This document shows, one piece after another, positions 20,961 through 26,500 of a DNA stretch of 64,000 nt (the first letter of the stretch is position 1; every line of letters begins with the position of its first letter). The notes below the pieces were generated by a model. It did no database searches. It saw only the letters and a program-made list of their open reading frames with translations, and was not told where the DNA came from. The translations under genes were made by a program, and so were the position numbers. Source of the DNA: Clavelina lepadiformis (lineage: Eukaryota > Chordata > Ascidiacea > Aplousobranchia > Clavelinidae); the NCBI RefSeq assembly GCF_947623445.1, contig NC_135248.1, positions 12,099,820-12,163,819 on the forward strand, written 5' to 3'.

Positions 20961-23900
20961 ATGGCAGCATCTGGCACTTTGTCTCCCAAAACTTGGATGG
21001 AAAATCTTGATAAAGCATTAGAGGAAGACAACTTCATCAATCGTTACTTGGACAAAATTGAAAAGAAAACTAATGTCAAAAAGCGCTACGTTGTTTTAGG
21101 TAAACAGCAACCCTTTTTATATAATATATATCTAGGCCTATGTTACTTTTGTGCATGTTTACATATTTGAAAATTTTATTGCAGTTTACCCATGATATTA
21201 CATGCAGTAATATGTTATTTTTTGAATCATCTCATTACGAAAGTATATTTTTTACAGGTTTTATTGCAGTGGGGTCATACTTTAATGAATCAACTTGACC
21301 TGTAGGTAGACAGTGAGAAAAGTTCAAAAGCCTGCTGTGTGTTTTCTATTGTTTAAGCCAGCATGAGGAGTAAGTTTTACAACTTGCAGAAGTGAGGAGC
21401 AAACAGAAGCAGTTTTACTTTCCATATATAACAAATCATATTGGAACTAAGTTTAAGCGAAATGAAAAGTTTTGTTGAGGCAGTCCGATACATAAATACC
21501 TTATTTACAGGAAAAAAGTCTGTTTAAAAATAAATTAGAAGAAGTATATCTTGCGAAAGGAGAATGTTTTGAGATAGAAACTGAGCATTTGTAGTAGTTA
21601 TGTTTACTAAATATTTTGACGGTATTATTCACACTAAGAAAAAGTTTAAATTTTTGTATTTTTATGCGCATTAAAGCAGTGTATGTTCTGTCAGAGTTTC
21701 AGGTTTGCATAACTAGGAAAATTCAGGTGATATAGATTGTGACAACTATAAAAAATGGAAACAGCAGTAGCACCAGCCACAGAGACTACCTTCAAGACAC
21801 AAGTTACCTCCAGAGCACAATCCACAAAGTGGACGAAAAAAGTTTGTGAGCGAATCCTAACTTTTTTGGAGCGTTTGGGTTTGAAAGAATTGGTGTTAAA
21901 ACAGAAGGCAACTGCGTTTTATGGTACTTAGTATTTCATTGAACGTGCACAAATTTGAGTGTTAAGAATTTTGTATGAAAAGTACTTTAGCTAAGCAAAG
22001 ATACATGAAACTGACTATTCAGGGCTCAGGCTGTTTGAGTACCGTTTGTTTACATATGCTTAATAATACCAAAGAAAGACCATGTGAAGGTGAAAATGCA
22101 AGGAACAAAATAGGTTTCATAAGTTTTTAGTGTTAGTTAAGTTGGTCAAGTAATCTTTTTGCATTTTACTGTTAAAACTATACGAGCAAGTTAGATTGAG
22201 CTAGTCTGTAAGATTAAATCATACACGTATATATATTCTAGACTTTGTAATACCTTGGATAAACTTCAAAAACAGTAATAGTGTATTATATACATGTGAA
22301 AGTTTTGTTTGGGTTGGTTAAAGCATTTTTGTAGGATATGTGGAGTACCTATGGTTACGTAATAACTGAAGTGTACTAGACATAAACACAATTTTTTTCT
22401 TTTAAACAGTGCTTTGTAGCTTTCTCAGTGTGTATCTGGTGATTGGATATGCAGCAGACCTCCTATGCAACATGATAGGTTTTGTTTATCCTGCGTACAT
22501 ATCGTGAGTTTTTTACGTATAAACAGGGCATGCTGTAGCAAATTTTCTCGTGATTGCTGTCTTAGATGTTTTTGTTCCTTTCCCTACTAGCTCTGCACTA
22601 AACGCATGCATTTCAAATTAATTGGAGAGCATGTGGTTCATCTTCATAGCACTCCCGTCATTGGTTGGTTAAAGTAATTAGTGTTTTAGCTTTGATGGAG
22701 AAATTTGTGTAGTTCTTTTTTATGCTGTTGTTTTTGTCGATCACAGAATGATGACTAACATACTGATTCTTGTACTCATTTTTCAACTTACTGCCCTTTG
22801 AAAATCTGCCAAAACTTCACCATAGCAAAACGTGAGATATATTAATAGAAACTGTTCCAAACATGTGCAGTTCTGCAGCAATGCTGCAGTGCTTATAAGA
22901 AAATTAATATTAACTATGGAAACACCACAGCATCAGATTGGAAACAGAAGTTTGATGACACAACATAATTTTATATGAATAAACAGTCAGTGCTTGGTAT
23001 TCAGTTTCTCAGATACATACTGAGTAAAGTTATCCAATGACATTATGACTAACAAGACCATAAGCTAAGTATCTATTCTATTGGCTATTGGGACTGGGGT
23101 ATATACAAGAACAAGCACGAAAATATTCATGCCTTATGTTTTCATTTCAACAGCATCTTTAACTCTATTTACATTGTTCATGATATCTGGACATGAATGG
23201 AATCATTTGGTCATTGACCTGATAGGATATGTATATCCAGGATATGTAACGTGAGTTGGGGAGTGTGAAATTCTTTTGGTTATGCTGCTAACCATTGTCA
23301 TTACTGTCAGATATAAAACCAACGGATAGCATTGAGAAAAGTGTGTTGTTTATGTTTGTTTGGCTGAATGTTTTATGTTCATATTAGAACGTTTTTGTCA
23401 GACCCACTTACCACCACATCAGAGTTCTGTAGAAATTAAAGTTGTTCTCTCTATGCACCCTATTAATGTATTTGGTTTGAGCTGAGTGCACACAAAAAAC
23501 ATTATACACAAAGGTCAAGTAGTTGAGACTTTGTTTCACAGAAGTGGTGGTGTTTATGTGTAGTATGCTGTATATACATCATCATTTCTTAAGTATTGTT
23601 TGTTGGTGATACTTCATGCCCCAAGTATCAGGCTCTGGTGGTAGCAGGTACCCATTACCGAAATTTCAATGAAGTTTTTGTAACATTATTTTATGTTGGA
23701 GTAAAGTTTAGTTCTTTATCGAAAAACAAGCTTGTCGCACCAAATGACCTCCTTTGCAACTGTAGGATGAACTTTGGCATGTAGAGATATAATACTAGTA
23801 TTATATGTACATACTGTAGATAGGTTTACAATATATATGTAACTTCCCAGGTTTCTGGGAAGTTGTAAGTTGGTGGTGACTAACTTAATTTTGTAAGACT

Positions 23901-26500: not shown

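Follow-up and report, generated by a model that had tools for sequence, protein, structure and literature searches.

A probable cluster of mutually exclusive second exons in a REEP5/6 gene of the ascidian Clavelina lepadiformis

We analysed a 64,000-nucleotide stretch of the Clavelina lepadiformis genome (contig NC_135248.1, positions 12,099,820 to 12,163,819; the whole stretch is called the window below). A REEP5/6 gene lies on its forward strand, with two alternative first exons, three versions of the second exon and three constitutive or terminal coding exons:

20961..21099, + strand: first exon 1A, with ATG, phase 1 out; canonical REEP5/6 N terminus; start as in the NCBI models P0001 and P0003
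21755..21923, + strand: alternative first exon 1B, with ATG, phase 1 out; weak 5′ splice site ATG/GTACTT
22410..22503, + strand: exon 2a, canonical TM1-turn-TM2 hairpin; present in predicted isoform X2 (P0001)
23154..23250, + strand: exon 2b, a third and diverged version, with one additional residue and the polar turn HEWNH
24157..24250, + strand: exon 2c, alternative hairpin shared among ascidians, with Trp in TM1 and Lys after PAY; predicted isoform X3 (P0003)
24576..24714, + strand: constitutive exon 3; Pfam TB2_DP1_HVA22
25638..25806, + strand: constitutive exon 4
26445..26500, + strand: last coding exon 5, including the stop

The predicted product is a member of the REEP5/6 subfamily of TB2/DP1/HVA22 proteins. 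All four of the isoforms submitted, out of six possible, scored 101.3–104.5 bits against the Pfam profile TB2_DP1_HVA22 (curated cut-off 27.2). Exons 1A to 2 align with the N terminus of animal REEP5/6, the region of the extra TM that REEP1-4 lack (topology from excerpts of published papers). AG and GT are found at every internal exon border, and the exon coordinates, lengths, phases, splice sites and peptides of a preliminary description of this DNA proved exact on rechecking. Searching the genome with each exon in turn gave one clear further REEP gene beyond the locus, on C3 and REEP1-4-like by eye, together with weak matches on C2 (E 0.33) and C4 (E 0.96). A sequence search of the PDB returned no relative, its sole match being at E 0.17.

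Exons 2a, 2b and 2c are 94, 97 and 94 nt long and each has phase 1 in and phase 2 out, the length change in 2b being a multiple of three. The neighbouring exons are thus homologous, similar in length and equal in phase, 2b being homologous though strongly diverged. Each version would encode TM1, most of TM2 and the luminal turn between them. Single choice of 2a, 2b or 2c yields a protein of 198 or 199 residues with 1A and 208 or 209 residues with 1B. The other five of the eight exon-2 combinations (none, the three pairs and the triple) lead to an early stop with either first exon; the earlier claim that two second exons together break the frame is therefore borne out for all pairs, and extends to none and to the triple. 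Premature stops in transcripts with zero, two or three exon-2 copies fall 258–456 nt upstream of the last junction. Given this distance and the 50-nt rule for nonsense-mediated decay, misjoined RNAs should decay, a prediction made from the frame. Frame incompatibility would thereby remove zero-, two- and three-copy transcripts through nonsense-mediated decay, and full-length protein would be made solely from single-choice mRNAs. No doubled hairpin occurs in the aligned exon-2 segment among the 120 matches listed of 649 homologues.

These homologues were found with the 1A+2b protein as query, and at least seven among the 120 matches listed have a 2c-type hairpin by eye (P0003, P0006, P0015, P0017, P0037, P0042 and P0088). 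The predicted Clavelina isoforms X2 (P0001) and X3 (P0003) are 1A+2a and 1A+2c, respectively. Proteins named as Ciona intestinalis form two slightly different sets, one comprising 1A+2a (P0004) and 1B+2a (P0020), the other 1B+2a (P0018), 1B+2c (P0037) and a third first exon joined to 2c (P0042). Predicted forms of Styela clava are 1B+2a (P0054) and 1B+2c (P0088), and among the matches listed the Phallusia form is 2c and the C. savignyi form 2a. The X-numbered isoforms of Ciona, Styela and Clavelina are NCBI predictions.

Ciona P0018 and P0037 are identical in exon 1 (38/38) and in exons 3-4 (103/103), as are Styela P0054 and P0088 (35/35 and 103/103). Across 32 exon-2 columns, the 2a and 2c forms agree at 14 in Clavelina, 18 in Ciona and 17 in Styela, against 103/103 for exons 3-4. 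Within each named species, the 2a- and 2c-form proteins come from equally sized contigs. Two environmental proteins, P0010 and P0015, likewise match in exon 1 (34/34) and exons 3-4 (103/103) and in only 12/32 columns of exon 2, with a single residue difference near the C terminus outside exon 2. Their source contigs of 1223 and 1317 bases are too short for such an intron-bearing gene, from which we infer that they are probably spliced transcripts. The 2a/2c alternative might, through these two proteins, reach a further tunicate group; a tree of exons 3-4 did not place them inside the tunicates with support.

The age of the pair was addressed with a tree of 34 exon-2 peptides chosen from 124 aligned rows. 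In this tree, which has few columns and leaves much unresolved, six 2c peptides form one clade (support 99/95), and the 2a rows are interspersed with those of other animals, vertebrates included, which is what one would expect if 2a is ancestral. The 2c peptides of different rows share 18–26 of 31 residues (mean 20.7), and 2a and 2c of the same species share 14 in Clavelina, 17 in Ciona, 16 in Styela and 12 in the environmental pair. Clavelina belongs to the Aplousobranchia, Styela to the Stolidobranchia and Ciona to the Phlebobranchia. Since the 2c clade spans all three genera, the tree places the 2a/2c duplication before the split of the three ascidian orders. Two residue differences are fixed between the versions. 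Position 55 is Trp in 6/6 2c rows and Tyr in 7/7 2a rows, and position 77 is Lys in 6/6 2c rows and Ile or Val in 7/7 2a rows; elsewhere Trp55 is found in 2/100 and Lys77 in 3/100 other rows, nine near-duplicate and two own rows being left out.

The organization of the gene is, very probably, that of a tandem-duplicated, mutually exclusive second exon, in which 2a is the canonical version, 2c a duplicate older than the ascidian orders and 2b a copy seen so far in Clavelina. Mutually exclusive use, as first proposed for all three, is supported for 2a and 2c by the predicted isoforms of three ascidian genera and by the environmental pair; for 2b it is argued from its sequence. The same triplication, proposed as something to seek in other tunicate REEP loci, did not turn up elsewhere; what is shared is the pair 2a/2c. 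Moreover, because predicted isoforms at NCBI already contain 2a and 2c, the cluster is not wholly unknown, although no paper on it was found. Listings of openly licensed PMC texts gave nothing relevant on REEP with mutually exclusive exons, on REEP in Clavelina, Ciona or other ascidians or on ReepB, and REEP is absent from the main text of the Ciona Esrp paper (PMC5703972). The X-numbered REEP5-like isoforms bear automatic names without description, and there is no 2b among those covered. The pair 2a/2c is conserved and was implicit in the isoforms predicted by NCBI; 2b is a candidate extra version.

Exon 2b is strongly diverged from the canonical hairpin. Its identity to 2a is 46/90 nt (51%), rough estimates over 30 codons give dN 0.62 and dS 2.19, and its branch in the exon-2 tree is the longest (1.65). 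It also departs from 46 chosen homologues at two positions that are constant among them, with Tyr for F71 and Gly for A75. The charged and His residues attributed to 2b in the preliminary description are real, but most of them lie in the turn HEWNH and the flanks stay hydrophobic. The hydrophobic-turn-hydrophobic pattern is kept, with one Asp in TM2 and a turn one residue longer (turn borders drawn by eye). Over a 41-nt stretch that spans the end of the exon and its 5′ splice site, 2b and 2a are 76% identical; the U1 consensus is matched at 6/9 positions and the 3′ site is pyrimidine-rich.

Exon 2b would thus be a further, fast-diverging copy of exon 2, seen in Clavelina only. Alternatively, 2a and 2c are the sole working alternatives, and 2b is a decaying duplicate, an unused or nearly unused cryptic exon, or a poison exon when joined, a reading to which we give somewhat less than an even chance. 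It would explain why no 2b-type protein appears among the 120 matches listed of 649 for the 1A+2b query, the Clavelina isoforms covered being X2 and X3, and it fits the long branch, the changes at F71 and A75 and the lowest score of the three exons in the hairpin profile described below (−1). The best own-species match to that query, among those listed, is 87% identical. A search aimed at 2b itself, with 1B, 2b and the first exon 3 residues as query, produced a single candidate with shared words and no match at E≤10; such a search is insensitive, since one of the same type with 2c missed Styela and Phallusia, and the full-length 1A+2b search is the better test for relatives of 2b. A DNA search of the genome with 2b found one match, 2b itself. 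In a simple neutral simulation, however, an open frame and both splice dinucleotides survive in just 1.0% (expected identity 0.48) to 2.3% (0.56) of cases, so that an exon left to decay would seldom look as 2b does. Its length change by a multiple of three, its splice-site matches, its preserved hairpin pattern and the dN and dS relative to 2a also speak against decay. Weighing these features, we lean towards 2b being used.

The first exons add a second choice. In local alignment, the score of Clavelina 1B against Ciona 1B was equalled in 0/2000 shuffles and that against Styela 1B in 2/2000; against Clavelina 1A there was no similarity (1480/2000 shuffles as good). When Clavelina 1B was compared with its Ciona and Styela counterparts without gaps and anchored at the end, the result was negative, 1974–2816 of 5000 shuffles being as good, and of 1672 open stretches scored in this way, the top six shown did not include 1B. 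Near its end, Clavelina 1B carries additional residues. From the local alignments, 1B is an alternative first exon common to Clavelina, Ciona and Styela. An additional, third first exon is seen in Ciona (P0042).

The existence of two first exons raises the prospect that each is tied to one second exon, such that choice is driven by promoters and reflects alternative transcription, not regulated splicing. This is most improbable, and promoter coupling of exon 2 was rejected, because the predicted isoform pairs mix first and second exons: Clavelina 1A, Ciona 1B and Styela 1B each occur with 2a and with 2c, and Ciona 2a occurs with 1A and 1B, Ciona 2c with 1B and the third first exon. Since the choice of first exon is independent of that of exon 2, the N-terminal module would be assembled combinatorially, the 1A/1B choice multiplying the exon-2 choice. 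Excerpts of PMC11455953 describe amphipathic helices at the N terminus of REEP5, and it is this region that 1B replaces.

We also asked how the three hairpin exons rank among other stretches of the window. Candidate exons were AG..GT stretches of seven lengths between 85 and 103 nt on both strands, 2839 in all, of which 431 were open. The hairpin profile comprised 86 distinct REEP segments, with all Clavelina rows left out and 2c-type rows of other species kept. Exon 2a ranked first among the 431 (score 78), a truncated 2a second (66), 2c third (57) and 2b fourth (−1), the next stretch scoring −23. Among the 426 open stretches lying clear of 2a, 2b and 2c, the mean was −75 (SD 13.5). That the three are merely hairpin-like open AG-GT stretches thrown up by chance is hardly credible, for although 2b is without outside support, 2a and 2c are conserved and present in named isoform models, and 2b lies 5.5 SD above the 426 other stretches, none of which reaches its score.

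As to how the choice among the second exons would be made, nothing points to a steric block, since the introns between the exon-2 copies measure 650 and 906 nt and GT-AG is used at every site. Competing intron pairing of the docking/selector kind was rejected: in a small test on one genome, the best pairings lay within the range of 12 shuffles in 3/3 layouts. Two groups of motifs flank 2a and 2c:

22528..22633, + strand: three GCATG motifs, Rbfox-like candidate regulators, 25, 101 and 126 nt downstream of 2a
24010..24345, + strand: TGCATG motifs, candidate regulators, 146, 101 and 64 nt upstream and 91 nt downstream of 2c

The region from exon 1A to exon 3 contains 10 GCATG motifs versus 3.8 expected, a number reached in 3/300 shuffles (nine motifs tried, uncorrected) and in 6/1211 sliding stretches of equal length on the + strand and 18/1211 on the − strand of the window. 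None lies within 300 nt of 2b. TGCATG occurs 5 times versus 1.7 expected; as 49 and 133 of 1211 sliding stretches on the two strands have as many, its clustering is not rare in the window. The motif scan found enrichment for two overlapping Rbfox patterns only, those for ESRP, CELF, MBNL, PTB, Nova, QKI and Hu not being enriched. The position of an Rbfox motif sets whether an exon is activated or repressed. Under this rule, the GCATG layout would favour 2a and repress 2c. Exon-2 choice may be regulated, perhaps directed by Rbfox.

An Rbfox RRM query matched RRM exons on C2 with 96% identity across 23 residues and 65% across 34; the highest single score, however, went to a different RRM, on C7, at 34%. 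The Fox-1_C profile had no match anywhere, and as its controls had none either, this search is uninformative. Ten RRM matches with 31–44% identity to the Rbfox RRM lie within 88 kb at G000 C6:16228003-16315401, either a cluster of RRM genes or copies.

The sole invariant Pro of the exchanged segment in 46 chosen homologues is P74, and the PAYxS motif has Gly and Thr in 2b and Thr in Clavelina 2c. Residues P19, A20 and S23 of REEP1 presumably fall on this motif. For REEP1, it has been suggested that the disease changes P19R/L, A20E and S23F interfere with folding and dimerisation (excerpts of PMC11455953). The same paper reports that targeting of REEP5 to ER tubules depends on its N-terminal domain, including the first TM: deletion of residues 2-51 shifts the protein to punctae, and REEP1 given this domain moves to the ER (PMC11455953). 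REEP5 dimerises through TM2, in which a Pro is well conserved (excerpts of PMC7835363). Most likely, then, an exon-2 swap replaces TM1 and most of TM2, the parts tied to localisation and dimerisation of REEP5, and together with the overlap at PAYxS this means that the exchange touches both kinds of part at once. Such a swap may alter how dimers pair or whether the protein resides in ER tubules or in vesicles, and from the published work on REEP5 it is plausible that exon-2 choice tunes the membrane hairpin. A bolder proposal, which we consider unlikely, is that 2a, 2b and 2c differ in the dimer face of TM2 such that each would pair mainly with itself and, with 1A and 1B, form separate tubule-bound and vesicle-forming ER-shaping populations. 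If true, one ascidian gene would make populations that vertebrates obtain from different REEP genes.

The arrangement resembles known clusters of mutually exclusive exons, in which neighbouring exons are homologous, similar in length and equal in phase (excerpts of PMC5740500 and PMC9741552), and a frame shift on joint inclusion is one of the modes of regulation listed (PMC5740500). It differs from the human clusters in that the swapped part is the membrane hairpin of an ER-shaping protein; as a term, REEP is absent from the main texts of both papers. Splice variation altering a membrane-shaping element is also described for REEP6, whose retinal isoform has exon 5 (excerpts of PMC9437294). There, a single C-terminal exon is in or out, whereas in the Clavelina gene the alternatives are homologous exons for the N-terminal hairpin. 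The difference between REEP5 and its REEP1-4 paralogues lies in separate genes, with TM1 absent from REEP1-4 rather than exchanged (excerpts of PMC11455953). Membrane bending of the REEP5 type has so far been studied by deletion, chimeras and cross-linking, as excerpts of PMC11455953 and PMC7835363 describe. Two distinct TM1-TM2 versions in an otherwise identical protein, kept in three ascidian orders, amount to a swap already carried out by evolution, with which curvature, dimer choice and placement in the ER could be studied, in Ciona even in the embryo. An ER-shaping protein would also join the genes known to use exchangeable exons.

Finally, several other features were observed in the window:

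16811-17419, + strand: EF-hand exon
33070-33141, + strand: tRNA gene
34452-34970, − strand: ARPC4 (ARP2/3 20 kDa subunit), a single open frame
41246-47815, − strand: exons of an intermediate filament gene, with Pfam Filament at 41246-41605 and 47417-47815
58360-59256, + strand: Gln-rich C2H2 zinc finger exon
60915-62189, − strand: GTPase, Pfam MMR_HSR1, Era-like by eye, one open frame
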